From Flavivirga algicola (GTDB lineage Bacteria > Bacteroidota > Bacteroidia > Flavobacteriales > Flavobacteriaceae): DNA of 64,000 nt. Location of the stretch: NCBI RefSeq assembly GCF_012910715.1, contig NZ_JABBHF010000002.1, forward strand, positions 253,001 through 317,000. The letters run 5' to 3'. The first letter of the stretch is position 1, and the number at the start of each line of letters is the position of its first letter. This document shows, piece by piece, positions 733 through 17,932 of this stretch. A program made the translations under genes and the position numbers. The notes beneath the pieces were generated by a model that was not told the DNA's origin, searched no databases, and saw only the letters and a list, made by a program, of their open reading frames with translations.

Positions 733-1137
733 ATGGGTAAAAACAGAAAAACACGAATTAGCATTATAGCACTGATAATTGTCGTTTTAATAGTTATTAT
801 TGGATATAATTATATATACCAAGACCATCGTAACATTGAAAAAGAAAAAGCCACTTTCTCTTTATCTGCTGATGAGATTAGTGCCGAATTTTCAAAAGAC
901 CCCGATACTGCCGAAAAGAAATATTTGAATAAGACTGTAGAAATTTATGGTACTATCACGGAATTAAATCCTATGGATATGACTTTAAATAACAATGTTT
1001 ATGGTGCTTTCAACATATCTCTTACTGCAACAACATCATACCATATTAATTCTAAAATAAAAATCAAAGGCAGGTGTATTGGTTATGATGATTTACTCGA
1101 ACAAGTGAAATTAGATCAATGCACCATATCTGATTAA
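733..1137 (+). CDS. Membrane-anchored OB-fold protein (tRNA_anti-like family)
   Basis: This 134-residue protein has one hydrophobic N-terminal segment (about residues 9-27, IIALIIVVLIVIIGYNYIY) preceded by lysine and arginine, so it is probably anchored in the inner membrane with the rest outside the cytoplasm. Residues about 45-130 resemble the small OB-fold domain of the tRNA_anti-like family common in Bacteroidota: SADEISAEFSKDPDTAEKKYLNKTVEIYGTI is followed by a series of beta strands and KIKGRCIGYDDLLEQVKLDQCTI. The function of the family is not established. The gene follows the sigma factor by 33 bp in the same direction and is likely co-transcribed with it. Confidence 0.7.
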   Translation: MGKNRKTRISIIALIIVVLIVIIGYNYIYQDHRNIEKEKATFSLSADEISAEFSKDPDTAEKKYLNKTVEIYGTITELNPMDMTLNNNVYGAFNISLTATTSYHINSKIKIKGRCIGYDDLLEQVKLDQCTISD

Positions 1138-1211
1138 ACCTAAATGAAAAAGATGATTGATTTCTACCAGAACTAAAAATAACAAAAACACCCTGTTTAA
1201 TCTTTAATTTT

Positions 1212-2060
1212 ATGAAATACTTACTAACTATTATTTTTTGTTTTCCCCTTCTAATCTATTCACAAGACGATTTATTAGATGAAATCGATTCAGATTCAAC
1301 TGGGATAGAATATGTTTCTGCTGCTTTTAAAGGACTAAAAATAGTCAACTTTGAGTCTACTAAACTTGTAGCTAAGAACGAACTTACGTTTATTGTATCC
1401 CATCGATTTGGAAGCCTAGAAAATGGCATTGATACTTTTTTTGGGTTGGATGATGCTGTAACACGTTTAAATTTTGTTTACGGCGTTTCCGATAACCTTA
1501 ATTTTGGAATCTCTAGAAGTTCTTTTCAAAAAATTTACGAAGTATCAACAAAATATAGGATACTAAGGCAAGTAAAAGACGGTTTCCCTTTTTCTATAGT
1601 TGGTTTTAATGCCTTTTTAATTAATACAGGCTTAGAGAAAGACAACTTACCTTTTATTGAATTTGAACACAGGCTTAGTTATACAATCCAATTATTAATA
1701 TCAAGAAAAATAAACACTAATTTATCCTTAGAATTAGCGCCTACCTTTTTCCACGACAACTTTGTACAAATTGACGGGCAAGATAATTCCCAATTCGCTC
1801 TAGGCCTAGGTGGTCGCCATAAATTATCTAAGCGTTGGTCTGTTAATATAGATTATGGTTGGCATTTAAATAGAGCTGATAACTCCCCTTTTAAAAATCC
1901 GCTATCCATTGGTTTCGATTTAGAAACTGGCGGGCATATTTTTCAGTTGCATTTTACTAATGCGCAAGGCATGAATACAAATACTTTTTTAGGTCAGGGG
2001 TCTGGAGATTGGTCTGATGGAAACATCTATTTTGGATTTAACTTAAGCAGAGTTTTTTAA
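1212..2060 (+). CDS. DUF5777-type outer-membrane beta-barrel protein
   Basis: This 282-residue protein has an N-terminal signal peptide (MKYLLTIIFCFPLLIYSQ) followed by an acidic stretch. It then has alternating polar/hydrophobic strands typical of an outer-membrane barrel (GLKIVNFESTKLVAKNELTF, VSHRFGSL, FVYGVSDNLNFGISRS) and ends in an aromatic residue (SRVF). It matches what I know of DUF5777 barrels in Bacteroidota, which commonly sit beside a small c-type cytochrome and a YceI-like protein, exactly as here (12 bp to the cytochrome gene). An electron-transfer or lipid/quinone-related role is suggested by that context only. Confidence 0.75.
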   Translation: MKYLLTIIFCFPLLIYSQDDLLDEIDSDSTGIEYVSAAFKGLKIVNFESTKLVAKNELTFIVSHRFGSLENGIDTFFGLDDAVTRLNFVYGVSDNLNFGISRSSFQKIYEVSTKYRILRQVKDGFPFSIVGFNAFLINTGLEKDNLPFIEFEHRLSYTIQLLISRKINTNLSLELAPTFFHDNFVQIDGQDNSQFALGLGGRHKLSKRWSVNIDYGWHLNRADNSPFKNPLSIGFDLETGGHIFQLHFTNAQGMNTNTFLGQGSGDWSDGNIYFGFNLSRVF

Positions 2061-2072
2061 TACCCTAATGTT

Positions 2073-2438
2073 ATGAAAAGAATATTTTTACTACTAATAT
2101 TTCAATCTATTATTTTTTCCAGCTGTACAAATGTTAGCGAGGAAGATTTAATTGCTAAAGAACCACAACCAACTATAACAACTTACAATGACGATGTAAA
2201 AACTATTATTGATAATAACTGTATTGTCTGCCACGCTAATCCACCAGTAAATGGTGCGCCAATATCGTTAACAACCTTTAATGATGTAAAAAATGCTGTG
2301 ACAAATAGCAATTTAATAAATAGGATTTCACGCCAGGCAGGAGAAAGTGGAGCCATGCCTTTTGGGGGACCCCGATTACCCCAAAATTTGATCGATATAA
2401 TACAGAAATGGGAAGACGATGGACTATTAGAAGAATGA
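2073..2438 (+). CDS. Small c-type cytochrome lipoprotein
   Basis: This is a 121-residue protein with a lipoprotein signal (lipobox FSSC, Cys18). It has a single haem c attachment motif, C50-I-V-C53-H54, in the context DDVKTIIDNNC. A likely distal methionine ligand is Met95 in GAMPFGG. The size and motif spacing fit a mono-haem cytochrome anchored by lipid to a membrane outside the cytoplasm. It lies in a run with the DUF5777 barrel (upstream) and YceI protein (downstream). It is clearly paralogous to the lipoprotein encoded at 13525-13869: NGAPISLTT here matches NGAPFSLTT there, and both end in KW-(D/N)DGLLE. The redox partner is unknown. Confidence 0.85.
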   Translation: MKRIFLLLIFQSIIFSSCTNVSEEDLIAKEPQPTITTYNDDVKTIIDNNCIVCHANPPVNGAPISLTTFNDVKNAVTNSNLINRISRQAGESGAMPFGGPRLPQNLIDIIQKWEDDGLLEE

Positions 2439-2484
2439 CATATTCTTTTACCTACGCTTATACAATTAATTAAAAAAATGAAAT

Positions 2485-3036
2485 ATGAAAAAAACACTTT
2501 TTCTAATGACCCTTTTTATTGGATTGGGGCTATCGGCACAAAGTAAATACTTAACAAAAAAAGGTACCGTTGCATTTGAGGCTTCCGTACCCTCTTTTGA
2601 AGAAGTAAAAGCATCACATAATTCTGTAACTGCTATAATAAATTCAGAAAATGGTGAATTTGCAACCTTAGTTTTAGTAAAAGGTTTTCGTTTTAAAAAT
2701 GCCCTCATGGAAGAGCATTTTAATGAAAACTATGCAGAATCAGACCTGTATCCTAAAGCAACATTTAAAGGAAAAATATTAAGTTTTTCAATGGATAAAT
2801 TAAGTGCAAAAAAACAATTATTTTTAATTAATGGCCAATTAACCTTTCATGGAAAAACGAAACAACTAGACAATGTTAAGGCCAACATAAACCTAAATGA
2901 AGATGGGCTTATTGAGATTTCTGGATTCTTTTTGGCCAACGCTACAGATTACAATATAAAAATACCAAAAGTTGTTAAAAATAAAATTGCCAATGACATA
3001 GAAGTGGCTTTCGATTTTAGTCTTAAAAAGAAGTAA
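2485..3036 (+). CDS. YceI-family periplasmic protein
   Basis: This 183-residue protein has a signal peptide (MKKTLFLMTLFIGLGLSAQS). The rest has the lipocalin-like YceI pattern: GTVAFEASVPSFEEVKASH near the start, then FATLVLVKGFRFKNALMEEHFNENYAES, then a TFKGKI strand and LTFHGKTKQL. Family members bind isoprenoid-type lipids. In Bacteroidota YceI genes often sit with cytochrome and barrel genes, as here. The gene is complete and begins 46 bp after the cytochrome gene. The ligand cannot be read from the sequence. Confidence 0.88.
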   Translation: MKKTLFLMTLFIGLGLSAQSKYLTKKGTVAFEASVPSFEEVKASHNSVTAIINSENGEFATLVLVKGFRFKNALMEEHFNENYAESDLYPKATFKGKILSFSMDKLSAKKQLFLINGQLTFHGKTKQLDNVKANINLNEDGLIEISGFFLANATDYNIKIPKVVKNKIANDIEVAFDFSLKKK

Positions 3037-3081: not shown

Positions 3082-3987
3082 ATGAATACACTTAAAACAT
3101 TACTATACTTTTCTATTTTTAAATATCCACTTACTAGAGAGGAAATTTATAAATTTTCACCTTTGCCTTCAAAAGGCACAATACGCGAGGAAATTGACCT
3201 TTTATTACACATGGGTATCATTTACAAGCTTAAGGGTTTTTACTCAATTGAAAATGACTTAGCTCATATACAGAGGAGGATTGAAGGTAACCGAATGGCG
3301 AAAAATATTATGCCAAAAGCCCTTAAGGTCTCTAAATTTATAGCTAAATTCCCTTATGTAGAAAGTGTTTCTCTTTCTGGAGCTTTATCTAAAGGTTATT
3401 ATGATGATCATGGAGATATTGATTTTTTCATCATAACTAAACCCAATAGATTATGGATAGCAAGAACCTTGCTTATTCTATACAAAAAAATCTTCCTATT
3501 GAATTCAAAGAAATATTTTTGTGTCAATTATTTTATTAGCAGTAATAATCTAAAAATTTTCGAACAAAATAGGTTTACAGCCACAGAATTGGCAACACTC
3601 ATTCCTGTTAATGGGAAAACGGTCTTTAAATCATTCATTGAAGAGAACCTTTGGGTAAAAGATTATTTCCCTAACATGACTCTAACAGATTTTTCAAAAA
3701 TACAGGATTATAAAAAGTCATGGCTATCTTTAATATTGCAAAGCTTTTTGAATTCAAAAATTGGTGATTCAATAGATGATTTCTTTAAAAAAGTCACATT
3801 AAAAAAATGGCACTCAAAATTCAATCATATGGAAAAAGATGATTTTAAAATTGCTATGAAATCTACTAAAAATGTTTCCAAACACCACCCTCAAAATTTT
3901 CAAAAAAAAGTGATTGATCTATTAAATAAAAAATACAATACCATAAGAAAACAATATAATTTAGACATACACTCTGAGCATGCTTGA
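3082..3987 (+). CDS. Nucleotidyltransferase-fold protein with N-terminal winged-helix-like region
   Basis: This 301-residue protein starts with a helical region (residues 1-60) that reads like a winged helix. The nucleotidyltransferase superfamily signature follows: the G100-A-L-S-K-G loop, then D112-I-D114 (GDIDFFI), the pair of metal-binding acidic residues. A third acidic position is not obvious. The C-terminal half is basic and lysine-rich. It opens a run of five genes with overlapping or touching ends: it overlaps the next gene by 8 bp. The substrate is unknown; it might activate or tag a small molecule or sugar handled by the following radical SAM, methyltransferase and glycosyltransferase genes. 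The superfamily call is fairly safe, the role is inference. Confidence 0.7.
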   Translation: MNTLKTLLYFSIFKYPLTREEIYKFSPLPSKGTIREEIDLLLHMGIIYKLKGFYSIENDLAHIQRRIEGNRMAKNIMPKALKVSKFIAKFPYVESVSLSGALSKGYYDDHGDIDFFIITKPNRLWIARTLLILYKKIFLLNSKKYFCVNYFISSNNLKIFEQNRFTATELATLIPVNGKTVFKSFIEENLWVKDYFPNMTLTDFSKIQDYKKSWLSLILQSFLNSKIGDSIDDFFKKVTLKKWHSKFNHMEKDDFKIAMKSTKNVSKHHPQNFQKKVIDLLNKKYNTIRKQYNLDIHSEHA

Positions 3988-5443
3988 TATAGTCTTTTCA
4001 CATTCTTATTATTATAAATTCGACCAAAAGCAATGGAAGAACAAAACGCCTTATCCCCCATTAGGCACTATTTATGCAGCCTCATATCTCAGGGAAAACG
4101 GATATTCTGTTGATCTTTTTGATGTAAATCTTCTTGATGAACCAAAAACAATTGAACCCTATTTAAAAAAGCATCAACCCAAAATATTTATTATTTATGA
4201 CGATGGTTTTAATTATCTAACAAAAATGTGCTTGACAACTATGCGTGGAGCTGCTTTTGAGATGATAAAAATAGCCAAAAGCCTACATTGTCATGTTATA
4301 GTTTGTAGTTCTGATGCTACCGATCATTATGAAAAGTATTTAAATTCTGGTGCAGATTTCGTAATTCAGGGAGAAGGAGAAATGACGCTTAAAGAGCTCG
4401 TGATCGCCCTTGAAGATAACCAAGACACATCTTTAATTCAGGGTATTGTATTCAAAAGTAAAGACGAAATAATTAAAAATCCGCCAAGAACCGTTTTAAA
4501 AGAATTAGATCAACTCCCTCTACCGGCATGGGATTTAGTTGATATTGAAGCATATCGAAATATCTGGGAGTCTCATGGAAATGAATTTACCCTAAATATT
4601 GCAACAACTCGCGGTTGCCCGTATAAATGTAATTGGTGTGCTAAGCCTATTTATGGTAATCGTTACAACTCGCATAGCCCCGAATATATTACGAAACACA
4701 TTAAACATTTGGTCGAAACATATCATGTAAACCGTTTTTGGATGTGTGACGATATTTTTGGATTAAAGCCTCATTGGGTTCAGCAATTCAATAAATGTCT
4801 AAAGACCGAAAGCCTATCGATCTCCTATTATATACAAAGTAGAGTCGATTTACTTTTAAAAGAAGACACTATCGATGCTTTAGCAGAAAGCGGACTTCAT
4901 GAAGTTTGGGTTGGAGCAGAAAGTGGTTCCCAATCCATACTGGATGGTATGGATAAAGGCATTACCGTTTCCCAAATTTATGAAGCGACTCACTTGCTAA
5001 AAGAGAAAAATATTCGTGTGGCATTCTTTATTCAATTTGGATATTTAAACGAAACCAAGGAGGATATCAATAAAACCATCCAAATGATTAAAACCCTAAT
5101 CCCTGATAATATTGGGGTTTCTGTTTCATATCCGTTGCCAGGAACCAAATTTTATGAAAAAGTTAAAGATGATTTACAACTAAAAGCTAATTGGACAGAT
5201 TCTGACGATTTGGCTATGCTATTCAAGGGAACGTTTAACCCAAAGTTCTATAAAAAACTGCATCGCTATGTACACAAAGAGTATCGTAAAAGTCAAGGAA
5301 TGGCTAATTTCAAAAAGATTTTTAAAACTCCTTTGTCTTTAACGAAATCCGAATTGAGATCTATACTTTTATATGGGTATTATGTTCCATCTGCGTTATT
5401 AGATAAAATAATTTTAAAAAATATGGAACACAGTTATGCCTAG
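3980..5443 (+). CDS. B12-binding-domain radical SAM enzyme (first of a pair)
   Basis: This is a 487-residue protein. Residues 1-150 form a Rossmann-like cobalamin-binding-type domain (PPLGTIYAASYLRENGYSVDLFD, ADFVIQGEGEMTLKEL), but I see no DxHxxG base-off motif. Residues about 200-410 are the radical SAM barrel, with C213-P-Y-K-C217-N-W-C220 binding the [4Fe-4S] cluster and a GAESGSQ motif further on. This layout is that of the BchE / P-methylase / HpnJ type, which carries out methylation or ring and carbon-skeleton chemistry. The C-terminal 80 residues are basic. It overlaps the methyltransferase gene by 8 bp and shares its layout with the second enzyme at 6218-7603, so the two may act in sequence on one substrate. 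Confidence 0.88.
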   Translation: MLDIVFSHSYYYKFDQKQWKNKTPYPPLGTIYAASYLRENGYSVDLFDVNLLDEPKTIEPYLKKHQPKIFIIYDDGFNYLTKMCLTTMRGAAFEMIKIAKSLHCHVIVCSSDATDHYEKYLNSGADFVIQGEGEMTLKELVIALEDNQDTSLIQGIVFKSKDEIIKNPPRTVLKELDQLPLPAWDLVDIEAYRNIWESHGNEFTLNIATTRGCPYKCNWCAKPIYGNRYNSHSPEYITKHIKHLVETYHVNRFWMCDDIFGLKPHWVQQFNKCLKTESLSISYYIQSRVDLLLKEDTIDALAESGLHEVWVGAESGSQSILDGMDKGITVSQIYEATHLLKEKNIRVAFFIQFGYLNETKEDINKTIQMIKTLIPDNIGVSVSYPLPGTKFYEKVKDDLQLKANWTDSDDLAMLFKGTFNPKFYKKLHRYVHKEYRKSQGMANFKKIFKTPLSLTKSELRSILLYGYYVPSALLDKIILKNMEHSYA

Positions 5444-6221
5444 TGATTTTGACATAGCTGCAAAAAATTACGATAATGTATTTACATTTTCTAAAATAGG
5501 CCGTGCACAACGGAATCGTGTGTATAGCTATCTAAATCCGATAATTAATAACACCACCAAAAAGCTTTCTATACTTGAACTAAATTGTGGTACAGGAGCT
5601 GATGCTATAAAATTGGCGAATCTCGGACATTCTGTCTTAGCCACAGACATCTCCAAAGCTATGATAGATGTGGCAAAAGCTAAAGAAACCCCTAAAAATT
5701 TAGATTTTAAAATTCAGGATATTAATACCATTTCAAGTCAAACGTTCCAAACACAATTTGACTTAATTTTCTCAAACTTTGGCGGATTAAACTGTCTTTC
5801 TAAAAAGGAATTGGAAGCTTTTATAAAAACCTCTAAAGACCTTCTAACCCCCAACGGAAAGCTAGTGTTCGTTATCATGCCTAGGTTTTGTATCTGGGAG
5901 CGACTATATTTTTATTTAAAAGGAGATTTAACAAATGCTAAAAGAAGACGTTCAAACAAAAGCGTCTTAGCCAATATAGATGGTATAAAAGTCCCTACAT
6001 GGTATTACAATCCGAAAGAAATTATATCCTTAGCAAAACCGCAGTACAAACCTGAAAAGATAAAGCCCATAGGGATAAGCGTCCCACCTTCGTATCTCGA
6101 AGCCTCTTTTATATCTAAAAGACCTCTTTTAGATCTATTAATTGGTATTGAAAAAATATTTAACTTTTCTTTTTTGGCTAAATATGCGGACCATTTTTTA
6201 ATTGAATTGACGAAGAAATGA
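5436..6221 (+). CDS. Class I SAM-dependent methyltransferase
   Basis: This 261-residue protein has the Rossmann methyltransferase motifs: motif I at residues 48-54 (ELNCGTG), the acidic end of strand 2 at D71 (VLATDISKAM), and a motif II/III region around DLIFSNFGGLNCL. The substrate-binding C-terminal half contains charged and aromatic stretches (CIWERLYFYLKGD). It overlaps the radical SAM gene before it by 8 bp and the one after it by 4 bp (ATGA), so the three are almost certainly translated together. It probably methylates the product or precursor of the two radical SAM enzymes; O-, N- or C-methylation cannot be told apart. Confidence 0.88.
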   Translation: MPSDFDIAAKNYDNVFTFSKIGRAQRNRVYSYLNPIINNTTKKLSILELNCGTGADAIKLANLGHSVLATDISKAMIDVAKAKETPKNLDFKIQDINTISSQTFQTQFDLIFSNFGGLNCLSKKELEAFIKTSKDLLTPNGKLVFVIMPRFCIWERLYFYLKGDLTNAKRRRSNKSVLANIDGIKVPTWYYNPKEIISLAKPQYKPEKIKPIGISVPPSYLEASFISKRPLLDLLIGIEKIFNFSFLAKYADHFLIELTKK

Positions 6222-7603
6222 GCCTCGTATTAACCCATGCTTATTACTTATACGAAGACCCAAAAGAGGCATATATCATGAAACCATATGCCCCTCTAGG
6301 ATTACTTTATATTTCGTCTTATTTAAATGAGAAATATGTAGAAAATCATGTCTTCGATTCTACATTTTATTCTCAAGAAGAACAACTAGTATTTATTCAA
6401 AACAAACGCCCAAAAGCCGTTGCTATTTACACCAATTTGATGACAAAAATTAACGTTATTAAATTGGTTAAACTATTAAAAAATGATTCAAGGTATGGTT
6501 TTCCTAAAGTTATATTGGGTGGTCCAGATGTCACCTATAATTGTAAAAATTATTTGAACAATGGTGCCGATTTTTTAGTTATAGGAGAAGGCGAACAAAC
6601 AACTTTAGAGTTGTATCGTGCTATAATAAGCAATAATAATTATCAAAATATTTCTGGAATTGCTTTTCTGGAAAATGACAAGGTTATAAAGACAGCTCCA
6701 AGAACTAAAATTAAAGACCTTTCGGAGCTACCCTTACCAAATAGATCTGCCATACCTGTAAATAAGTATTTAGAAACCTGGAAGACACACCATGGAAAAA
6801 GCTCTATGACCGTTAGCACACAACGTGGCTGCCCCTACACTTGTAAATGGTGCAGTACTGCCGTTTATGGTCAAAGTTACAGAAGGCGTCCAGCAAATAT
6901 GGTTGCCGCCGAATTACGTATGCTTAAAGATTCTTACAAGCCTGATAGTATTTGGTTTGTAGACGATGTATTTACAGTAAGCCATAAATGGATAAAAAGT
7001 TTTCACGAAGAAGTCATCAAACAAAATGCAATTATCCCTTTTGAATGTATTACAAGAGCAGAGCGTTTAAACAGTGAGATATTGCAACTGTTAAAAGAAG
7101 CGGGATGCTTCCGAATTTGGATTGGTGCCGAAAGCGGCTCCCAAAAAATCATTGATGCCATGGACAGACGTGTAGATGTAAATATAGTAAAAGAAGCCAT
7201 TCAAAAAACAAATGCCTTAGGTATTGAAACTGGTACATTTATTATGATAGGCTATCCTGGGGAAGATGAAACAGATATTAATCAAACTATTAAGTATTTA
7301 AAAGATGCCAATCCAACATATTTCACTATTACAGTAGCTTATCCCATTAAAGGAACATCTCTATATAATGAGATTGAAGATAAAATAATAGCACACCCTA
7401 ATTGGGAAACATCTACGGATAGGGATATTGATTTTTCTAGAACTTACTCTAGAAAATTTTATGATTATGCAGTAAGGAAAGTTGTAAACAATGTTGAACT
7501 TTACAAAGAGATAAACAAAGGAAAAAGCAGGAGTAACCTGAAAGTATTTAAACTAAAAACCAAATTACTTTTGATTGATAGGTTAATGAAAATTAATAAA
7601 TGA
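6218..7603 (+). CDS. B12-binding-domain radical SAM enzyme (second of a pair)
   Basis: This 461-residue protein has the same architecture as the enzyme at 3980-5443. An N-terminal cobalamin-binding-type domain (YAPLGLLYISSYL, ILGGPDVTYNC, ADFLVIGEGEQTTLELY) lacks a visible DxHxxG. It is followed by a radical SAM barrel with C205-P-Y-T-C209-K-W-C212 and GAESGSQKIIDAM. The basic C-terminal region resembles that of its partner. The two proteins share many local motifs but are not near-identical, so this is an old duplication with likely different reactions rather than redundancy. It begins inside the last codons of the methyltransferase gene and ends 3 bp before the glycosyltransferase gene. Confidence 0.88.
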   Translation: MSLVLTHAYYLYEDPKEAYIMKPYAPLGLLYISSYLNEKYVENHVFDSTFYSQEEQLVFIQNKRPKAVAIYTNLMTKINVIKLVKLLKNDSRYGFPKVILGGPDVTYNCKNYLNNGADFLVIGEGEQTTLELYRAIISNNNYQNISGIAFLENDKVIKTAPRTKIKDLSELPLPNRSAIPVNKYLETWKTHHGKSSMTVSTQRGCPYTCKWCSTAVYGQSYRRRPANMVAAELRMLKDSYKPDSIWFVDDVFTVSHKWIKSFHEEVIKQNAIIPFECITRAERLNSEILQLLKEAGCFRIWIGAESGSQKIIDAMDRRVDVNIVKEAIQKTNALGIETGTFIMIGYPGEDETDINQTIKYLKDANPTYFTITVAYPIKGTSLYNEIEDKIIAHPNWETSTDRDIDFSRTYSRKFYDYAVRKVVNNVELYKEINKGKSRSNLKVFKLKTKLLLIDRLMKINK

Positions 7604-7606
7604 GAA

Positions 7607-8587
7607 ATGGAAGGGATATCAAGGGTTAGTATCATAATACCTACTAGAAATAGACTAATTTCTTTAAAACGAACTTTACGCTCTATTTCCAAACAAACAT
7701 GCCTCCCTAAAGAAATAATCATTATAGACTCAAGTGACAATCTACTTAAAAGAGAGCAAGTAGATTTGAAATTTAATTGTGACTTACAAATAATTCAATC
7801 TAAGCCATCGGTATGCTTACAAAGAAATATAGGCATTAAAAAGAGTCATTCTAATTATATTTTCTTATGTGATGATGATATTGAAATCTCTAAAAACTAT
7901 ATAGAAGAACTGGTACGCTTTTTAAATAAAAACCCTTCTGAAACTATAGCTAGTGGGTTAATTTATGAAAAACATCAAGATAAGTGGCTTTATTGCTTTC
8001 CAAAAAGTTCTACTTTGGGGCTATTACATTCCTACATTTTTTCATGTTCTTTAAACTTTGAATTAGATAAAAGAGATTACCCAAATAATTTTATTATTCA
8101 GAAGATTATTGATTCTTATATAAAAAAAGGAAATCACATCTCAAAATCTGGATGGCCATGCACAATAAGTTATACTGGTGACTATTTTGCAGCACCAATT
8201 TACGGATTGGGTGCTTCAATAATTAGATCTAAGGATTTGAAAAATGTATTATATGATACTGCTTTTTATACCCATGGTGTTGGAGATAATTATGATTTAG
8301 CTATTGGTTTAGATAAAGACATAAATGTTATAAAACGTGCAAATGCTTATCATCATAAAGAAATAATAAATAGAGTAAATAGTGATAAAGCATATTATTA
8401 TAGAATAGGTGCATTACACTATATTCTACTAAAACACAAACGATTTAATCACATAAATTTACTTTTTTTAATATGGTCATTAATTGGTAATTCTATACTA
8501 TTCTTAAAAAAAAGAGCGTTAAAAAAAATCTATTATAGTTTAATTATGATTTTAAGAATCATTTTTCATCGTAATCTATATCAATAA
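7607..8587 (+). CDS. Family 2 glycosyltransferase
   Basis: This 326-residue protein has a GT-A fold N-terminus (VSIIIPTRNRLISLKRTL, EIIIIDSSD). After LQRNIGI it has the metal-binding acidic cluster D89-D90-D91 (FLCDDDIEIS). The middle part (DYFAAPIYGLGASIIRSKDL, then HGVGDNYDLAIGLD) fits acceptor binding. A hydrophobic C-terminal segment (about residues 285-305) suggests membrane association. It follows the second radical SAM gene by 3 bp and is most likely the last gene of that operon. It would add a sugar to the product of the pathway; neither donor nor acceptor can be named. Confidence 0.85.
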   Translation: MEGISRVSIIIPTRNRLISLKRTLRSISKQTCLPKEIIIIDSSDNLLKREQVDLKFNCDLQIIQSKPSVCLQRNIGIKKSHSNYIFLCDDDIEISKNYIEELVRFLNKNPSETIASGLIYEKHQDKWLYCFPKSSTLGLLHSYIFSCSLNFELDKRDYPNNFIIQKIIDSYIKKGNHISKSGWPCTISYTGDYFAAPIYGLGASIIRSKDLKNVLYDTAFYTHGVGDNYDLAIGLDKDINVIKRANAYHHKEIINRVNSDKAYYYRIGALHYILLKHKRFNHINLLFLIWSLIGNSILFLKKRALKKIYYSLIMILRIIFHRNLYQ

Positions 8588-8651: not shown

Positions 8652-10340
8652 ATGAATATAAAACAAACCTATTTTGATATACTTTCGATAATTCCCGAAA
8701 ATAAGCATCGAAAATTATTTATTTTTTTTATAAAAAGTATACTTAATGGTTTATTAGATTTAATTTCAATGGCTTATGTTGTACCTATATTAATTTTATT
8801 TTTTGATCCAAAAAAATTAGAAAGCATGGTATCAACACATTTAAACTACACTATTAATTTACATAGCTCTTGGGTCTTATTTTTGTCTTTAGGGCTTCTA
8901 TTACTGTTTTTCATAAAAACAATAATACAAACAAAATTCAATTCTGCACTATACCGTTTTTTATTTGATATTTCGACAGAGTTATCAATGGCAAGTATAA
9001 CAAACTTTATAAATGAAAAATATCTTCAGTTTCAAAAAGAAGACAAAGGTAAAATACTTCAAAGTATAACAACTGTACCTGATGATTTTTGTCGTAATTT
9101 ATTACACTCTTTTATTTTCCTATTTTCTGAAATATTTGTTTTAATTATAATATTGACTTCTTTGCTGATACTATACTTCAAAATTACTTTAATAATATTA
9201 TTGGTTGTTTTATCATTTTCTACATTTATTTATTTTATACAAAGAAGACGGTTTTTATTGTTCGATACTATTTACCATAAATCTGAGTCTAAAGCAAATA
9301 ATCATATTTTAAATATATTAGATGGTTTTTTAGAAATCAAAAGCTCTCAAAATGAAGAGTACTTTTTAAACGAATACAAGAAAGAGAAATCATTACTCAA
9401 TAATGTTTCTGCTGAATTAATTTCATACTATTCTAATTACTCTAAATATTTAGAAATATTCTTAATTTTATGTTTAGCAATCTTAACTTTTTTTAGTTTT
9501 CAAAAAAATGACACAATAGTTCTTTTCTCTATTCTAGGAGCTGTTTGCCTAAGGCTCATTCCTTCAATAAGTAAAATTATGAATGGAATTACCATGATTA
9601 ACTCTCATTTTTATACAATTGAAGTATTAAATAAAATAAAACATAAAAAGGAAAGAGGTATAAACATTTTTAACTCTACTATTGAACTACGAAATATTTA
9701 TTTTAGTTACGGAAAAAATGCTATTCTTAAAAATTGTAATATAAATATAAAGAAAGGTAGTTTTATTGGTTTAAAAGGTAATTCAGGAATAGGTAAAACT
9801 ACTTTTATATATCTTATTTTAGGGGTTTTAGAACCCCAAAAAGGGAACTACCTTATTGATGAAAAAGAAATTAACATAGGTAATTTCTTGTCATTTGCTA
9901 ATTATGTTCCCCAACAACCCTTTTTATTTAAAGGCAGTATTATTGATAATATTGTTATGGGCCAAGAAAAAGCAAACATAAATTATGACTACATTTTTTT
10001 TCTTTGTAAAAAGCTGGCTTTACATGATGTAATTGAAAAATTGAACAATGGATACAAAACAATATTAGAACATAATAGCCTACGCCTTTCAGGAGGACAA
10101 AAACAACGACTAGCCATTGTAAGAGCTTTATATACAAAACCAGACCTATTAATATTAGATGAAGCAACAAATCAACAAAACAAATCATTAGAACAACAGA
10201 TTTTTATTTTCTTGAAAGAGCTTTCCATTAATTCGAAAACCACAATCATTAATGTTTCACATAATAAAGATGTAGATTCTTTTTTGGATGATATATATAT
10301 AATTAAGGATGAAAAATTAGAAAATATCATTGATTCTTAA
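8652..10340 (+). CDS. ABC exporter half-transporter with a degenerate D-loop
   Basis: This 562-residue fusion of a membrane domain and an ATPase domain begins with an N-terminal half holding about six hydrophobic segments (residues 20-330). The ATPase has Walker A G376-N-S-G-I-G-K-T383, signature L479-S-G-G-Q483, Walker B ending D503-E504 and an H-loop VSHNKD. The D-loop after Walker B, usually SALD, reads N507-Q-Q-N510. The domain looks otherwise intact. It probably homodimerises to export a lipid-linked glycan or the product of the operon upstream. The gene is strongly A+T-rich. It converges on the next gene, with a 14-bp overlap of the 3' ends. Confidence 0.88.
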   Translation: MNIKQTYFDILSIIPENKHRKLFIFFIKSILNGLLDLISMAYVVPILILFFDPKKLESMVSTHLNYTINLHSSWVLFLSLGLLLLFFIKTIIQTKFNSALYRFLFDISTELSMASITNFINEKYLQFQKEDKGKILQSITTVPDDFCRNLLHSFIFLFSEIFVLIIILTSLLILYFKITLIILLVVLSFSTFIYFIQRRRFLLFDTIYHKSESKANNHILNILDGFLEIKSSQNEEYFLNEYKKEKSLLNNVSAELISYYSNYSKYLEIFLILCLAILTFFSFQKNDTIVLFSILGAVCLRLIPSISKIMNGITMINSHFYTIEVLNKIKHKKERGINIFNSTIELRNIYFSYGKNAILKNCNINIKKGSFIGLKGNSGIGKTTFIYLILGVLEPQKGNYLIDEKEINIGNFLSFANYVPQQPFLFKGSIIDNIVMGQEKANINYDYIFFLCKKLALHDVIEKLNNGYKTILEHNSLRLSGGQKQRLAIVRALYTKPDLLILDEATNQQNKSLEQQIFIFLKELSINSKTTIINVSHNKDVDSFLDDIYIIKDEKLENIIDS

Positions 10341-11367
10341 GTCTTTTGATTGCATTTATTCTTTTCCCTTTTAAAAAATAAAAAGCTAGATTGGTAAAAT
10401 TCCATCCTAAAAGCCTAGGTAAAATTATTAGTTGTAAAGCTATTTTATCTTTCAGCTTCATGTTAATATTTTGAACCTCAATTTCTTTTTTAAATCTCAC
10501 CAAGTACTTCAAAAAAGTTTTCCTTACTATATCAATATCTATTATTCTCTTTTCATCAATAATCTGCATGATATAAGTATCCATAAAAACATTTAATGTA
10601 AACTTCCCTATCTTATTTTTATAATCATTTAAGTTATTATACTTTTTTGATATGTCTAATTCTAATTCAAAAACTCTATAAGCATCAACAATTCTTTTAG
10701 GTTCAAGTTCTCGTCTAGTAATAGAAGAATTTCGTCTGTAGATTTTTAGAAGTTTTTTATTGACAAATGAAGCTGTTTCAGAAAGATGTAAATATTCTAA
10801 CAAGAAAGGTCTGTCATCAAACCATAATCCCTTTTCAAAAACAATTTGTTTAGCTAAATTGGTTCTAAAAACTTTTGCCCATACATTTTCGCTAATACCG
10901 CCACAATACATTTGGTTAATCAATTCGTTAGTACTTTCTTTTTTAGATAGTTCTCCATTCCAATTTGAATTATAACTTATTTTTCCATCTTCACTATAAA
11001 CAGAAATATCACAAATAGCTATATCAGCTTTAAAACTTTTAATATCTTCTATAAAAACTTCTATCATATTAGGTTCCAAAAGATCGTCTGCATCCAAAAA
11101 AGTCACATAATCACCTGTACAATTTTCTAATCCAATATTACGAGCTTCTGCATGTCCTGAGTTTTGAATTGTAATTAAGTTTGCCTTAAAAAAACTATCA
11201 GCGTATTCTTTCGCTATTTTTAAAGAAAAATCTGTAGACCCATCATTAATTAAAATTACTTCAAAACGATTGTAGGTTTGACTTGAAACAGAGTGTAAAC
11301 ACCTATCTAAAAAATCCTCTTCATTATAAAAAGCTATTATTATTGATATTAACGGATTATTTTTCAT
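10327..11367 (-). CDS. Family 2 glycosyltransferase
   Basis: This is a 346-residue protein with the canonical GT2 N-terminus. It opens PLISIIIAFYNEEDFLDRCL, followed by VILINDGSTD, the NSGHAEARNIGL segment and the metal-binding D-A-D-D (VTFLDADDLLEP). The C-terminal 130 residues are basic and helical with a hydrophobic patch (LAFYFLKGK), as in capsular or O-antigen transferases. It lies on the strand opposite the exporter and overlaps that gene's 3' end. It is downstream of the nucleosidase-like gene by 7 bp and is probably co-transcribed with it. Confidence 0.88.
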   Translation of the reverse strand: MKNNPLISIIIAFYNEEDFLDRCLHSVSSQTYNRFEVILINDGSTDFSLKIAKEYADSFFKANLITIQNSGHAEARNIGLENCTGDYVTFLDADDLLEPNMIEVFIEDIKSFKADIAICDISVYSEDGKISYNSNWNGELSKKESTNELINQMYCGGISENVWAKVFRTNLAKQIVFEKGLWFDDRPFLLEYLHLSETASFVNKKLLKIYRRNSSITRRELEPKRIVDAYRVFELELDISKKYNNLNDYKNKIGKFTLNVFMDTYIMQIIDEKRIIDIDIVRKTFLKYLVRFKKEIEVQNINMKLKDKIALQLIILPRLLGWNFTNLAFYFLKGKRINAIKRLKNQ

Positions 11368-11374
11368 TCCAATT

Positions 11375-12115
11375 TTATGTTTTCGAACAAATTGTAATAA
11401 TAGAATTGATGATATTATTTAATTTGTCAACGTTTTGGGGAGGTGTCCAACGATTATTTGTTAAATCATCCGCTGAGACTATAATACACATAGCATTTAA
11501 TTTGTAAAATTCAGAAAACGCATATATTGAAGCACTTTCCATATCCACATGTGTCACCTTTTTTTCTCTATAATAGTTTAATAAAGATGGGGTTTCTCTA
11601 AAAGGGGCATCTGTACTCCAACCTATAGTTTCAGCAAGGTTTAATTTAGATTTTAAATTATTATACCACTCATTTTTAATAGGTTTAAAACTATCTTTCA
11701 TTGAATACAAAGTAGTACATCCAGATGTAGAAAAAGTGTTTTTAAGTATAAAACTATTATTTCTGGATTCATTAAAAATCAATGATCCTCCCAATCCAAT
11801 AAAAATAAAATTTTCTACTCCCAAACAACGCAACTCTTCTAAATGACCAATTAATGCGGGTGCACCATTTCCAAAGTTAGAAGCATACATAAAATTGTTA
11901 TTTATAATGTAGTTGTTACCAACCAGACCTTTTGCTTTTTTTGAAACAAAACGCACCTTTCTAGATAAAAGATTTTTATCTAAAGAAATAATTGCAGTTA
12001 ATGGAAGTTTATCAAAATTATATTTTCGCCTTTTTTTATTCCAGTCGACTATCATTGAAATATCCAAAATCGTATTCTCATTGTAAAAATTGGAATCTTT
12101 GAAATTAAATGACAT
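11375..12115 (-). CDS. Uridine phosphorylase / nucleosidase superfamily protein
   Basis: This 246-residue protein has the phosphorylase-superfamily landmarks: the SNFGNGAPALIGHLEEL segment, the GLGGSL loop at about 107-112, V190-D-M-E193-S-A (the sugar-binding Glu), and a late acidic motif VSADDLT. The arginine that in true uridine phosphorylases precedes the GT loop and binds phosphate is not seen (FIFIGLGG). A hydrolytic nucleosidase (MTA/SAH-like) or an unknown specificity is therefore possible. Lying next to radical SAM and methyltransferase genes, it might remove 5'-deoxyadenosine or S-adenosylhomocysteine; a sugar-nucleotide role is the alternative. It is divergent from the glycosyltransferase gene at 12208. 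Confidence 0.65.
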   Translation of the reverse strand: MSFNFKDSNFYNENTILDISMIVDWNKKRRKYNFDKLPLTAIISLDKNLLSRKVRFVSKKAKGLVGNNYIINNNFMYASNFGNGAPALIGHLEELRCLGVENFIFIGLGGSLIFNESRNNSFILKNTFSTSGCTTLYSMKDSFKPIKNEWYNNLKSKLNLAETIGWSTDAPFRETPSLLNYYREKKVTHVDMESASIYAFSEFYKLNAMCIIVSADDLTNNRWTPPQNVDKLNNIINSIITICSKT

Positions 12116-12207: not shown

Positions 12208-13260
12208 GTGAATAAAAGATTATTATTTATAACACCAATGTTTCCAAAAGATAAAGCTGAAGATACTATTGTACCTTTTATAACCCACTTCACAGAAACA
12301 TTTGTTAATAACACTGATGCAGAAGTAGATATACTAGCCCTAATGTTTCCTTTATCGAAAGATTATTTTTATGAAGGAATCAAAGTTTACACCATCAAAA
12401 GCGGATACAAAAAAAAACTGAAGATGTTTCCTTATTTAATCAAAGCAATCTCAAGAGGAATATATTTAGATAAAAAAAATAATTACGATGGTATATTATG
12501 TTTTTGGTATAGTCAAAGTACACTAGTAGGAAAAGTGATAAGTAAATTTACCAGAACACCACAAATAGTTTGGATGCTAGGTCAAGACGTTAAAAAAAAT
12601 AATAAATACCTTAATTGGATAAAAATACCTGCTCATAAAATTATAATGGTTTCAAATCAGCAGCGAAATATCTTTTATAAAAATTATAAAATCTATGTTA
12701 AAAAAATTGCAAACGTAGCTATAAATCCAAAAAGGTTTCCAAAAATAAATAATGAAGAAAGAAAGATTCAAATTCTTGGAGTTGGTAATTTAAGCCCTTT
12801 AAAAAATTATTCTTTATTTATTGATATCATTCAGGTTTTAAAAAAAGAATTCTCTAATATTTCCGTTGTACTTTGCGGTGGAGATGGTGAAGACAAAAAT
12901 TCACTTTTAAAAAAAGTAGATGACTTTGATTTATCTAATAACATCAAATTTACTGGCACTATTCCTCATAAAAAAGTTTTGAATTTCATGAATAATTCAA
13001 CGATATTTTTACATACATCAAAATTTGAAGGCAATCCCACTGTAGTACAAGAAGCACTATATTCTGGATGTTATGTTATAAGTACTATTCCAATGGAGCA
13101 AAGTTCGAAAATGGACACTTTTTTTCATAGTACAGAGAAAGATGAAATTATTAATAAAATAAAAAACATTTTACACAATCAGAAGTTTTTAGCAAAAAGA
13201 GTTGAAAAATTTAAAATGACAGATACTATTGATACTGTCTATAAAGCGTTTTTTGATTAA
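12208..13260 (+). CDS. Family 4 (GT-B) glycosyltransferase
   Basis: This 350-residue protein starts at a GTG (MNKRLLFITPMFPKDKAEDT); the ATG at 12188 runs into a stop after six codons. The C-terminal half has the GT4 features: GVGNLSPLKNYSLFIDII, VVLCGGDGEDKNSL, FTGTIPHKKVLNFM and the E-x7-E donor motif in FEGNPTVVQEAL. It is probably retaining and uses a nucleotide sugar. It is the last gene of the A+T-rich glycan segment: the 60 bases at 12661-12720 hold only 13 G or C. Its donor is unknown. Confidence 0.87.
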   Translation: MNKRLLFITPMFPKDKAEDTIVPFITHFTETFVNNTDAEVDILALMFPLSKDYFYEGIKVYTIKSGYKKKLKMFPYLIKAISRGIYLDKKNNYDGILCFWYSQSTLVGKVISKFTRTPQIVWMLGQDVKKNNKYLNWIKIPAHKIIMVSNQQRNIFYKNYKIYVKKIANVAINPKRFPKINNEERKIQILGVGNLSPLKNYSLFIDIIQVLKKEFSNISVVLCGGDGEDKNSLLKKVDDFDLSNNIKFTGTIPHKKVLNFMNNSTIFLHTSKFEGNPTVVQEALYSGCYVISTIPMEQSSKMDTFFHSTEKDEIINKIKNILHNQKFLAKRVEKFKMTDTIDTVYKAFFD

Positions 13261-13524: not shown

Positions 13525-13869
13525 ATGAATTCTAAAAATCCTATTTTATTCCTTATGGTATTACTTGTACTTAATTGTTCTAATAGAGATGATGACCCAA
13601 TATCTCAACCAGACCCAAATGCAAAAATTACTTATGATGCTAATGTAAAAAACATTATTGGCGGCAATTGTTTACAATGTCACGGTAATCCAACAGCTAA
13701 TGGTGCTCCTTTTTCTTTAACAACTTACACTCAAGTTAAGGATAGAATAGATATTATATTAACTCGAATTAATAGCTCTTCCAGTCCTATGCCTCCTACT
13801 GGTCAAATGCCTTTCGGCAACAGGGATATTATTCAAAAATGGAAAAACGATGGTCTTTTGGAAAACTAG
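13525..13869 (+). CDS. Small c-type cytochrome lipoprotein (paralogue)
   Basis: This is a 114-residue lipoprotein (lipobox VLNC, Cys18) with a single haem motif C49-L-Q-C52-H53. Candidate distal methionines are Met89 (SPMPP) or Met95 (GQMPFGN). It shares the core NVKNIIGGNC-LQCHGNP-NGAPFSLTT and the ending KWKNDGLLEN with the cytochrome encoded at 2073-2438. Unlike that gene it stands alone, between the glycan segment and carB, with its own 264-bp upstream region and a strong terminator after it. Confidence 0.83.
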   Translation: MNSKNPILFLMVLLVLNCSNRDDDPISQPDPNAKITYDANVKNIIGGNCLQCHGNPTANGAPFSLTTYTQVKDRIDIILTRINSSSSPMPPTGQMPFGNRDIIQKWKNDGLLEN

Positions 13870-16783: not shown

Positions 16784-16817
16784 TTTTACTGGTTATATGT
16801 TGTATTAAAATTTGTTA

Positions 16818-16825
16818 CAAAAATA
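16818..16825 (-). promoter_or_regulatory. Bacteroidota -7 element for carB
   Basis: On the minus strand these bases read TATTTTTG, matching TAnnTTTG, about 35 bp before the carB start codon. No TTG at the expected spacing was found upstream, so only the -7 part is supported. Confidence 0.55.
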
Positions 16826-16840
16826 CTACTTAGCAGATAT

Positions 16841-16873
16841 AAAAAAAGGCGTTACACTTAAGTAACACCTTTA
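16841..16873 (-). terminator. Rho-independent terminator of rpmH
   Basis: On the minus strand GGTGTTAC pairs with GTAACGCC (one G-U pair) around a six-base loop and is followed by seven T. It lies 23 bp after the rpmH stop codon. Confidence 0.8.
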
Positions 16874-16895
16874 AAATATCAACAATTGTTAATCA

Positions 16896-17057
16896 TTATT
16901 TCTTATGTCTTGTTTCAGATGACACAGATAACTTTTTTCTTCCTTTAGCTCTTCTACGTGCTAATACCTTTCTACCGTTAGCAGAAGCCATTCTTTCTCT
17001 GAAACCGTGTTTGTTTCTTCTCTTTCTTTTAGAAGGCTGAAATGTTCTTTTACTCAT
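16896..17057 (-). CDS. rpmH: 50S ribosomal protein L34
   Basis: This is a 53-residue, very basic protein starting [20 protein letters not shown] and containing [20 protein letters not shown], the near-invariant L34 sequence. A six-residue extension ([10 protein letters not shown] region) at the C-terminus is usual in Flavobacteriia. It stands alone, with its own promoter and terminator, and without the rnpA neighbour seen in many bacteria. The reading frame was found directly in the DNA. Confidence 0.97.
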
Positions 17058-17096
17058 TATCTTGTATCTTTAAATCTGAATTGTATTTTTCTTAAG

Positions 17097-17113
17097 TTTG
17101 GAGCTCCTCCAAA
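17097..17113 (-). promoter_or_regulatory. Hairpin in the rpmH leader
   Basis: In the transcribed leader TTTGGAG and CTCCAAA form a perfect seven-bp stem with a GAG loop, between the promoter and the L34 start. It could protect the mRNA or serve as an autoregulatory site; no function is shown by sequence alone. Confidence 0.5.
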
Positions 17114-17121
17114 ACCGAGGG

Positions 17122-17152
17122 CAAATATACAAAGCCTTTATTACTTTGCAAA
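17122..17152 (-). promoter_or_regulatory. rpmH promoter (-33 and -7 boxes)
   Basis: On the minus strand TTTG (17149-17152) is followed after exactly 19 bases by TATATTTG (17122-17129). This is a full match to the Bacteroidota housekeeping promoter. It predicts a leader of roughly 55-60 nt. Confidence 0.85.
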
Positions 17153-17356
17153 CCATTTTTAAAAAAATATTTTCAATTATTTTTTTGAGTAAAAACTTTC
17201 CAACCAAACCCTTGTATGTTTAGGCTAATCAGTACTTTTTGTTAAATATCTATGAGTTAATTTTAATAAAAATTTAGTTTCTTTGCAATCTAAAACAAAA
17301 GAGGCCTTGTTTGCATATATAAAAATAACGTCTACTCACATTATAAACTTATTAAA

Positions 17357-17932
17357 ATGTACAATAAAATTATAAAACTAATTATAGCTGCGGGGATTAT
17401 TGCTTATGCTGTCTATCAATTTACAGAAGGCTATATAGGCAATGGTATTATGCTTATTCTGCTCTCTTTAATTTTTGTATTTCTTTACTTTAAGAATGAG
17501 TTTATTTTATTAGCTTTTTTAAGGCTACGTAAACAAGACTTCGATGGCGCAAAAAAATGGCTCAGTAAAATTAAAAAACCAGAATCGGCTTTAGTAAAGA
17601 AACAGCAAGGATATTATAATTACTTACATGGTATTATGGTTTCACAAAGTAACATGAATGAAGCCGAAAAATATTTTAAGAAGGCGGTTTCTCTTGGGCT
17701 ATCTATGAATCATGATCTAGCTATGGCCAAATTAAATTTAGCTGGTATCGCTTTTTCCAAACGCAGAAAACAAGAAGCTCAAAAACTACTATCTGAAGCT
17801 CAAAAACTGGACAAACAAGGTATGTTGACCGATCAGATAAAAATGATGAAACAAAATATGAAGCGCTCTCAAATGCCTAATCAGCATTATGGTAGTGGCG
17901 GTTCTTTAAGAGCTCAAAAAAGAAGAGGATAA
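17357..17932 (+). CDS. Membrane-anchored TPR protein
   Basis: This 191-residue protein has two N-terminal membrane segments (about residues 5-22 and 29-45) followed by cytoplasmic helical repeats. Tetratricopeptide-like units are seen at about 58-80 (DFDGAKKWLSKIKKPESAL), 82-108 (GYYNYLHGIMVSQSNMNEAEKYFKKAVSLGL) and 115-145 (DLAMAKLNLAGIAFSKRRKQEAQKLLSEA). The C-terminus is basic and glycine-rich (YGSGGSLRAQKRRG). It probably acts as a protein-binding scaffold. No partner is evident; the next gene is convergent. Confidence 0.75.
   Translation: MYNKIIKLIIAAGIIAYAVYQFTEGYIGNGIMLILLSLIFVFLYFKNEFILLAFLRLRKQDFDGAKKWLSKIKKPESALVKKQQGYYNYLHGIMVSQSNMNEAEKYFKKAVSLGLSMNHDLAMAKLNLAGIAFSKRRKQEAQKLLSEAQKLDKQGMLTDQIKMMKQNMKRSQMPNQHYGSGGSLRAQKRRG

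Follow-up and report, generated by a model that had tools for sequence, protein, structure and literature searches.

Within the window, the 64,000-nucleotide stretch of Flavivirga algicola DNA that we analyzed, five open reading frames (ORFs) follow one another on the plus strand. The first (NT; positions 3082 to 3987; 301 amino acids) encodes a protein called a winged-helix, nucleotidyltransferase-fold protein on the basis of a sub-cutoff NTP_transf_2 match and a predicted model. It is followed by R1 (3980 to 5443; 487 amino acids), a B12-binding radical SAM enzyme assigned by Pfam, clade, and predicted fold; by MT (5436 to 6221; 261 amino acids), a class I SAM-dependent methyltransferase (Pfam Methyltransf_25, 59.6 bits; cutoff, 27); and by R2 (6218 to 7603; 461 amino acids), a second B12-binding radical SAM enzyme assigned by Pfam and clade. 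The fifth ORF (7607 to 8587; 326 amino acids) encodes a family 2 glycosyltransferase (Glycos_transf_2, 58.6 bits; cutoff, 23.3). Successive ORFs overlap by 8, 8, and 4 nt, and the fifth begins after a 3-nt gap. This overlapping layout and the methyltransferase and glycosyltransferase calls agree with an earlier sequence-only reading, which had proposed a five-gene operon next to an ABC transporter.

The transporter is indeed present, at positions 8652 to 10340 of the plus strand, with fused membrane and ATPase domains (cluster 13, found in 23 of 80 related loci). Beyond it lie a family 2 glycosyltransferase (10327 to 11367, minus strand; cluster 26, 11/80 loci), a nucleoside-phosphorylase superfamily protein (11375 to 12115, minus strand; PNP_UDP_1, 38.2 bits against a cutoff of 25.1; cluster 25, 11/80 loci), and a GT4-type glycosyltransferase (12208 to 13260, plus strand; Glycos_transf_1, 87.1 bits against a cutoff of 26.4; cluster 18, 20/80 loci). 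A Bacteroidota promoter pattern matched 9 times in the window, with 6.45 matches expected, and had no match between positions 1507 and 3082.

Conservation of the core genes

The 80 related loci were the best 80 of 419 R1 matches, so they come from close relatives, and the way they were chosen ensures that each has R1; NT was present in all 80, MT in 79, and R2 in 71. The gene order and the overlaps were common to relatives in the Flavobacteriaceae: with the window included, NT overlapped R1 in 72 of 81 loci, R1 overlapped MT in 64 of 80, and MT overlapped R2 in 50 of 67. An arrangement in which order and overlaps are repeated among relatives is more than chance. Across 149 genomes of the family, NT and R1 were found in the identical 10 genomes (including that of F. 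algicola itself), side by side. Culturable species with the core include Kordia periserrulae (L034) and Winogradskyella echinorum (L045). Among 395 sampled Bacteroidota genomes, 27 had an R1/R2-type match (E value of at most 1e-60). Each of the 27 also had an NT match no more than 5 kb away on that contig, and in 20 of them the distance was at most 600 bp.

We retrieved the locus from 20 of the 26 other Bacteroidota genomes with an R1/R2-type match. NT was on the strand opposite R1 in 4 of these 20 distant loci (L174, L176, L178, and L180), which means that the genes do not form an operon everywhere. The simple ORF caller overlooked NT in L172 and R1 in L178, and sequence searches detected both. 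Eight genomes whose core locus lacks R2 were searched, and six of them had no R2 elsewhere, although four of these six are metagenome-assembled genomes by title and perhaps incomplete. The constant part is therefore NT-R1-MT, usually with R2, which is optional. The distribution data cover Bacteroidota genomes, and in the relatives examined there the core genes were linked. Within this phylum, neither outcome that the earlier reading named as refuting it (radical SAM proteins in a known pathway clade, or genes unlinked in most relatives) was observed.

The same was not true of the fifth gene. Among the 66 loci, not counting the window, in which R2 is full length, the ORF 3' of R2 encoded a methyltransferase in 28, a CxxCH protein in 15, a GT-C-like protein in 14, a family 2 glycosyltransferase of the window type in 4, and something else in 5. 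Thus, of the five-family set put forward earlier, the NT-R1-MT(-R2) linkage stood, and the glycosyltransferase as a fixed member, and with it the five-gene unit, was rejected.

Pairwise distances correlated at 0.79 for R1-R2, 0.57 for NT-R1, 0.52 for R1-MT, 0.39 for NT-R2, and a weak 0.24 for NT-MT. Distances of the flanking PolA gene correlated as well, with those of R1 (0.71) and NT (0.74; n = 27), so the correlations between gene pairs mainly reflect vertical inheritance.

The radical SAM enzymes R1 and R2

R1 and R2 both passed the Pfam cutoffs for the Radical_SAM domain (67 and 82.6 bits, respectively; cutoff, 29.5) and for the N-terminal B12-binding domain (PF02310; 36.1 and 34.2 bits; cutoff, 32.1). 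They are only 32 to 33% identical to each other, which bears out the description of two divergent B12-type enzymes, while R1 is 67 to 78% identical to 26 relatives that had been preselected at less than 78%. The three cysteines of the CxxxCxxC motif were kept in 99 of 99 R1 and 71 of 71 R2 sequences of at least 380 amino acids. In a radical SAM tree built by a quick method from 87 of the 204 rows (one in five of the Flavobacteriaceae R1 and R2 rows was used), with a midpoint root and long branches flagged, R1 formed a clade of its own and R1 and R2 were sister clades.

R1 matched 42 NCBIfam models and R2 matched 48; among the 25 top-scoring models listed per protein, neither enzyme reached a cutoff. 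Scores for R1 and R2, respectively, were 158 and 155 bits with BchE (TIGR02026; cutoff, 481.35), 128 and 130 bits with HpnJ (TIGR03471; cutoff, 577.6), 97 and 92 bits with HpnR (TIGR04367; cutoff, 650), 119 and 156 bits with the P-methyltransferase PhpK (TIGR04479; cutoff, 600), and 65 and 79 bits with the AprD4 model (cutoff, 500).

The predicted model of R1 has the class 1 cobalamin radical SAM fold, closest to AprD4 (Z score, 23.8), MgmA (23.4), and OxsB (23.2); these and TsrM (21.1) aligned over 371 to 421 residues. The top match, AprD4, a radical SAM diol dehydratase acting on paromamine (6fd2), is effectively tied with MgmA and OxsB; it aligned over 413 residues but is only 16% identical to R1. 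Z scores to OxsB, TsrM, TokK, and CysS ranged from 19.6 to 23.2. R1 shares with these four enzymes and MgmA the N-terminal Rossmann B12 domain, the radical SAM barrel, the C-terminal helices, and the CxxxCxxC motif, and its model superposes on the class 1 enzymes and MgmA over most of its length and has a hairpin that follows Rossmann strand 5 (strands 156 to 160 and 163 to 166 in R1, counted by eye). It differs from them in sequence, with identities of 13 to 24% in the structural alignments, and in its partners, NT and MT.

An asparagine occupies the column of the cobalt-facing Asn186 of OxsB in all 99 R1 and all 71 R2 sequences. In the HMMER alignment of R1, N78 pairs with OxsB N186, in the loop after strand 3, and N73 of R2 falls in the same column as R1 N78; R1 has a three-residue insertion here, and the pLDDT of its model is below 50 at residues 77 to 84. 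The aligned residue gives a weak hint that R1 and R2 might carry out a sugar rearrangement. BchE has an asparagine in this loop one position off the R1/R2 column, so the residue is not a clean marker of OxsB-like enzymes. If it is meaningful, the family would offer many natural homologues for studying the role of cobalamin in nonmethylating enzymes.

The nucleotidyltransferase-like protein NT

The nucleotidyltransferase call made earlier for NT was weaker than the calls for the other genes, and we describe NT as nucleotidyltransferase-like. Its NTP_transf_2 (PF01909) score of 18 bits is under the Pfam gathering cutoff of 21, but the S-G...D-x-D stretch (S99, G100, D112, and D114) was invariant in 28 of 28 sequences; the third catalytic acid was not identified. 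The predicted model (pLDDT, 89.6) combines a winged helix with a weak likeness to MNT- and ANT-type nucleotidyltransferases. The best Foldseek match was weak (E value, 3.1e-3), and Z scores to ANT(4') were 7.3 to 7.6 over 108 to 115 residues, all below 8. NT has the D-x-D pair in common with MNT antitoxins and aminoglycoside nucleotidyltransferases and differs from them in its extra N-terminal winged helix and its linkage to R1.

The variable cassette

The cassette that starts with the fifth gene varies among loci. It consists of genes for glycosyltransferases and exporters, along with methyltransferases and additional radical SAM enzymes, a composition like that of surface-glycan loci. In the window it comprises three glycosyltransferases and the ABC protein. 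Among the 80 related loci, 70 held at least one member of six glycosyltransferase clusters within the retrieved flanks, and some of the 10 without one are short contigs. Other recurring clusters were a GDSL hydrolase, a polysaccharide deacetylase, methyltransferases including FkbM, and a protein of capsular synthesis; all of these Pfam assignments, including those of the glycosyltransferase clusters, were made on one representative per cluster. Wzx-like and GT-C-like membrane proteins, assigned by eye, also recurred. The genome carries 34 widely spread family 2 glycosyltransferase genes, so neighboring glycosyltransferases alone are weak evidence.

The ABC transporter is only distantly PglK- or MsbA-like, scoring 179 bits with the PglK model (NF050066; cutoff, 1000) and 166 of 602 bits for MsbA. 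An initiating sugar-phosphate transferase was absent from the window, and the five Bac_transf genes of the genome are all on other contigs; a relative of such a transferase occurred in 3 of the 20 distant loci (L178, L181, and L185, by BLAST label, with Pfam agreement checked for L181 only).

Loci for surface polysaccharides and O antigens have constant genes beside a cassette of glycosyltransferase and exporter-like genes that differs among relatives, and the locus described here has the same constant-plus-variable layout. Unlike in O-antigen loci, the constant block is NT-radical SAM-MT-radical SAM, and the window has no initiating transferase.

Proposed function and alternatives

A tightly packed four-gene block with two B12-type radical enzymes is thus repeatedly found as one unit in scattered members of the Bacteroidota, and it probably contributes to making an unusual portion of a surface sugar or glycolipid. 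We consider it reasonably likely that the four-gene constant part and the variable part from the fifth gene on form a surface-glycan or glycolipid locus with a shared unusual building block. The gene surroundings favor a glycolipid or glycan as the type of pathway, and our best reading of the module is an undescribed sugar-modifying unit of such a pathway, with inferred chemistry. Among the open-license papers examined, none dealt with the gene set, and no core enzyme had a characterized close relative among the comparisons made.

In the proposed scheme, the constant part would make or modify one shared building block, most likely a sugar. NT would attach or recognize a nucleotide on the precursor; R1, together with R2 where present, would perform radical carbon chemistry on it with [4Fe-4S]-SAM and cobalamin, either methylating a carbon or rearranging the sugar skeleton in an OxsB-like way; and MT would methylate a heteroatom. 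The variable glycosyltransferases could then attach more sugars, and the exporter (the ABC protein here, Wzx-like proteins elsewhere) may carry the lipid-linked product over the membrane. A sugar is proposed as the substrate because of the neighbors and because AprD4 and OxsB act on sugars; against it, the equally close folds of MgmA and TsrM act elsewhere, methylating protein or tryptophan. Most known cobalamin radical SAM enzymes come from the pathways of antibiotics, RiPPs, hopanoids, and cofactors, and two sister families of them with NT and variable glycosyltransferases would place such chemistry in the Bacteroidota cell envelope. At four genes, the core is a compact target that lends itself to a clear test.

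A variant of this proposal, in which R1 and R2 are plain methylcobalamin C-methyltransferases that make a C-methyl sugar and nothing about them is OxsB-like, is a substantial possibility that we rate somewhat below even chances. It gains from the off-column asparagine of BchE, which makes this residue an unclean marker, and from a review in which three of the four structurally characterized enzymes are methyltransferases (PMC13331322). It sits less well with the asparagine at the Asn186 column, where TokK has Trp and TsrM has Arg, although a single residue is no proof.

We regard it as unlikely that the product of the core is a diffusible small molecule, such as a nucleoside-like natural product, that the nearby glycosyltransferases decorate and the exporter exports. 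In favor of this, nucleoside-type enzymes recur among the satellite genes: the window and 11 of 80 loci encode a relative of nucleoside phosphorylases, and of the 20 distant loci, 3 have a cytidine-deaminase-fold protein and 8 have an amidohydrolase (BLAST labels, one representative of each checked). OxsB, among the nearest folds of R1, also speaks for it, since it acts on the sugar of dATP (PMC13331322). The glycosyltransferases and the GT-C-like and Wzx-like membrane proteins in which the cassette varies are a better fit to a glycan, and carrier-protein, NRPS, and PKS families were absent from about 40 scanned proteins, a small share of the neighbors.

A bolder form of the glycolipid proposal, to which we give little credence, would make R1 and R2 an OxsB-like nonmethylating pair that carries out two consecutive skeleton rearrangements of a nucleotide-linked sugar, with NT giving the nucleotide. 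If this is true, the resulting sugar would have a ring size or branching without precedent and would be the core shared by surface glycolipids that otherwise vary across the Bacteroidota.

A phosphonate route was rejected. The PhpK cutoff was not reached, and the genome has a PEP_mutase-family match (227 bits) on another contig (C23), but 11 of the 14 control genomes matched this family as well, which leaves the match with little information. Finally, the best NCBIfam matches include BchE, HpnJ, PhpK, and a ladderane-associated radical SAM model, and the outline of HpnI-HpnK-HpnJ, which forms the hopanoid cyclitol ether, is similar in that a glycosyltransferase and a radical SAM enzyme work on the sugar of a lipid, HpnJ acting last, after the glycosyltransferase and the deacetylase (PMC12583986). 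Nevertheless, membership of R1 and R2 in a known lipid pathway (hopanoid HpnJ/HpnR or ladderane) or in BchE-type ring closure was rejected as very improbable: they reach 0.14 to 0.34 of the cutoffs for BchE, HpnJ, HpnR, and the ladderane model, the genome has no SQHop_cyclase_C (hopene cyclase) match, and the BchE-level proteins of the phylum score 749 to 776 bits with the model that scores R1 and R2 far lower.

A constant four-gene core

Positions 3082-8587 of the window hold five plus-strand ORFs that overlap by 8, 8, and 4 nt and end with a 3-nt gap, so the overlapping run described by the sequence-only reading is present, as is the adjacent ABC transporter gene (8652-10340, downstream of the five ORFs). 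Pfam matches above the cut-off likewise bore out two proteins with B12-binding and radical SAM domains (R1 and R2), a class I methyltransferase (MT), and a family 2 glycosyltransferase (GT2), but the sequence of the proposed nucleotidyltransferase (NT) scored 18 bits, short of the 21-bit cut-off. The genome comprises 5.02 Mb in 37 contigs, with the window on contig C12, and among the best 80 of 419 relatives listed, the closest named relatives of the R1 gene are from Flavobacteriaceae.

The 419 R1 relatives came from scanning a single genome for each species, and the best 80, all Bacteroidota by title, were kept. These loci contain R1 by construction; all 80 also had NT, 79 had MT, and 71 had R2 (67 R2 proteins, window included, had at least 380 amino acids). 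All core gene pairs were on the same strand in the 81 loci that include the window, and, counted in the same way, overlaps joined NT to R1 in 72/81, R1 to MT in 64/80, and MT to R2 in 50/67. The constant part is thus a core of four genes, NT, R1, MT, and R2, and not the five-gene set first proposed: the glycosyltransferase lies outside it, since the ORF following R2 varies. The unit is patchy in distribution, as the same 10 of 149 family genomes, that of the window counted, carried both R1 (E values up to 1e-60) and NT (up to 1e-4), side by side in each.

R2 is a usual but optional core gene, absent in place from nine of the 80 loci. Eight of these nine genomes (all except that of locus L105) were searched for R2 elsewhere, and two carried it: Kordia algicida, where a separation of about 25 kb between R1 and R2 suggests an insertion or rearrangement within the core, and a metagenome-assembled genome (MAG) with R1 and R2 on different contigs. 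The other six gave an R1 match only (311 to 324 bits); four of them (L049, L052, L056, and L100) are MAGs by title, which makes the absence there less certain. A locus subtype lacking R2 was also seen (L041, L049, L052, L056, L060, and L100), with a divergent MT (29 to 37% identity to that of the window; 516 to 521 amino acids in L049, L052, and L056) and, next to it on the minus strand, a protein of 358 to 412 amino acids, a GT2 of cluster 26, and a nucleoside-phosphorylase relative.

Linkage across the phylum

Profile searches of 395 genomes from the phylum matched NT (E values up to 1e-6) in 30 and R2, with a profile that also catches R1 (up to 1e-60), in 27, all among the 30. In 27/27 genomes carrying both, the genes were linked on one contig within 5 kb, and in 20 within 600 bp; NT matches in the three NT-only genomes (G166, G267, and G525) were weak. 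Neighborhoods were fetched for 20 of the 26 other genomes with an R1/R2-type match. R1 appeared in the ORF tables of 18 and, by profile search, in a nineteenth (L178), while L172 had only an R2-like protein in its table; R2 was found in four (L169 to L172). An MT-type best match, which generic methyltransferases also give, occurred in 19 (absent from L186), about 7 kb away in L179. NT lay on the strand opposite to R1 in L174, L176, L178, and L180, and 4.4 kb from it in L188. The linkage of the core genes is thus old, and the tight operon is characteristic of the closer relatives.

Ten of these 20 distant loci (L173, L174, L176 to L180, L184, L185, and L187) had further B12-type radical SAM proteins of about 500 amino acids (families R4 and R5) near the core, accompanied in seven (L174, L176 to L179, L184, and L185) by an amidohydrolase relative and a methyltransferase, possibly a second module. 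A cytidine-deaminase-fold protein (Pfam check on L181) was close to NT-R1-MT in three: L175 (7238-7789), L181 (11123-11701), and L183 (7118-7840).

The radical SAM enzymes and the NT protein

The sequence-only reading described R1 and R2 as divergent but alike in architecture. Neither protein reached the cut-off of any of its 25 best-listed NCBIfam models (42 models matched R1, and 48 matched R2). By E value, BchE came first for R1 (158 of 481 bits), and for R2 it was PhpK (156 of 600 bits); across 296 sampled genomes of the phylum, 62 proteins at BchE level scored 749 to 776 bits. In a quick, midpoint-rooted tree of 87 of the 204 radical SAM proteins from the loci, with some long branches flagged, R1 and R2 formed separate sister clades (SH-aLRT 98 and 99; 100 together), apart from the R3, R4, and R5 families of the same loci, in a tree built without HpnJ, HpnR, and OxsB references.

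The AlphaFold model of R1 (mean pLDDT 80.8; below 50 at residues 77 to 84, 209 to 229, and two short stretches) matched AprD4 (Z 23.8), MgmA (23.4), OxsB (23.2), TsrM (21.1), CysS (20.3), and TokK (19.6). By our strand count, the model has the beta-hairpin after the fifth Rossmann strand given for OxsB, TsrM, and TokK in a review (PMC13331322). The same review places a residue from the loop after strand 3 below the cobalt (OxsB Asn186, TsrM Arg69, and TokK Trp76) and has OxsB contracting the sugar of deoxyadenosine phosphates, its methylation activity being regarded as an artefact. R1 N78, which follows strand 69-73 in the model, paired with the OxsB residue counted as 186 in a HMMER alignment; R2 N73 shared its column and also fell on Asn186 when the positions after strand 3 were matched by eye with no gaps. 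The asparagine was kept in 99/99 R1 and 71/71 R2 proteins, with Thr or Ser in R3, R4, and R5. In a second alignment with five BchE and 18 other B12-type radical SAM proteins, it was present in 35/35 R1 and 18/18 R2, and all other rows had a gap, so the residue assigned to them varies with the reading of the loop: ungapped by eye, Asn in one of 17 readable proteins (L227); shifted by one position, also in BchE (5/5) and L221. This is a weak hint that the asparagine may face the cobalt as in OxsB, since it concerns a single residue, R1 has three inserted residues, the loop is modeled at low confidence, and the background is uncertain.

The NT model (pLDDT 89.6) shows an N-terminal winged helix and, after it, a domain resembling nucleotidyltransferases. 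Foldseek matches were weak (best E value 3.1e-3, an MNT protein), and VIA-align against ANT(4') gave Z 7.3 to 7.6 over 108 to 115 residues, below the safe level of the tool. S99, G100, D112, and D114 were invariant in 28/28 sequences. Enzymatic activity of NT is plausible.

The variable cassette and the probable product

Directly after full-length R2 (66 loci, window left out), the next ORF fell in a second methyltransferase cluster in 28 loci; 15 loci had a CxxCH-containing protein there, 14 a GT-C-like membrane protein, four the window-type GT2, and five some other ORF. At least one member of six glycosyltransferase clusters, each named by the Pfam match of its scanned representative, lay within the fetched flanks of 70/80 loci. 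Other cluster representatives matched GT87, GDSL hydrolase, polysaccharide deacetylase, FkbM methyltransferase, an NKWYS capsular-synthesis protein, and additional radical SAM enzymes; the labels Wzx-like, GT-C-like, and adenylylsulfate-kinase-like are putative, read off hydrophobicity and sequence without a family match. Farther downstream in the window lie a GT4 enzyme and two minus-strand genes, one for another GT2 and one for a nucleoside-phosphorylase relative. As GT2 matches number 34 and are spread over the genome, two nearby mean little alone, and the weight falls on recurrence in relatives.

Surface-glycan loci usually pair a constant block with a changing glycosyltransferase cassette, and the same arrangement is seen here. 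Unlike a standard capsule locus, the window locus has no initiating sugar-phosphate transferase, the genome's five all being on other contigs. Most likely, the core makes an unusual sugar that forms a common part of a surface glycan or glycolipid, a class of product that we consider fairly probable; any specific reaction is far less likely. No description of the core gene set was found in the open-licence papers searched. Its parts come from known families, and the NT-R1-MT-R2 combination and the R1 and R2 clades appear undescribed within that literature.

R3, a further B12-type radical SAM family, occurred in 14 loci (Kordia-type loci such as L034, at 16123-17550) and often had genes for a GDSL hydrolase and a polysaccharide deacetylase close by; its best NCBIfam match was HpnJ (156 of 577.6 bits). 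Immediately upstream of NT, a four-gene block at 733-3036 (clusters 15, 10, 5, and 14) kept its order in some twelve of the 80 loci and, being rearranged or inverted in others, looks like an independent neighbor unit. Two related CxxCH-containing lipoprotein-like genes (2073-2438 and 13525-13869; 40% identity over 115 aligned columns) flank the core and cassette as if framing them.
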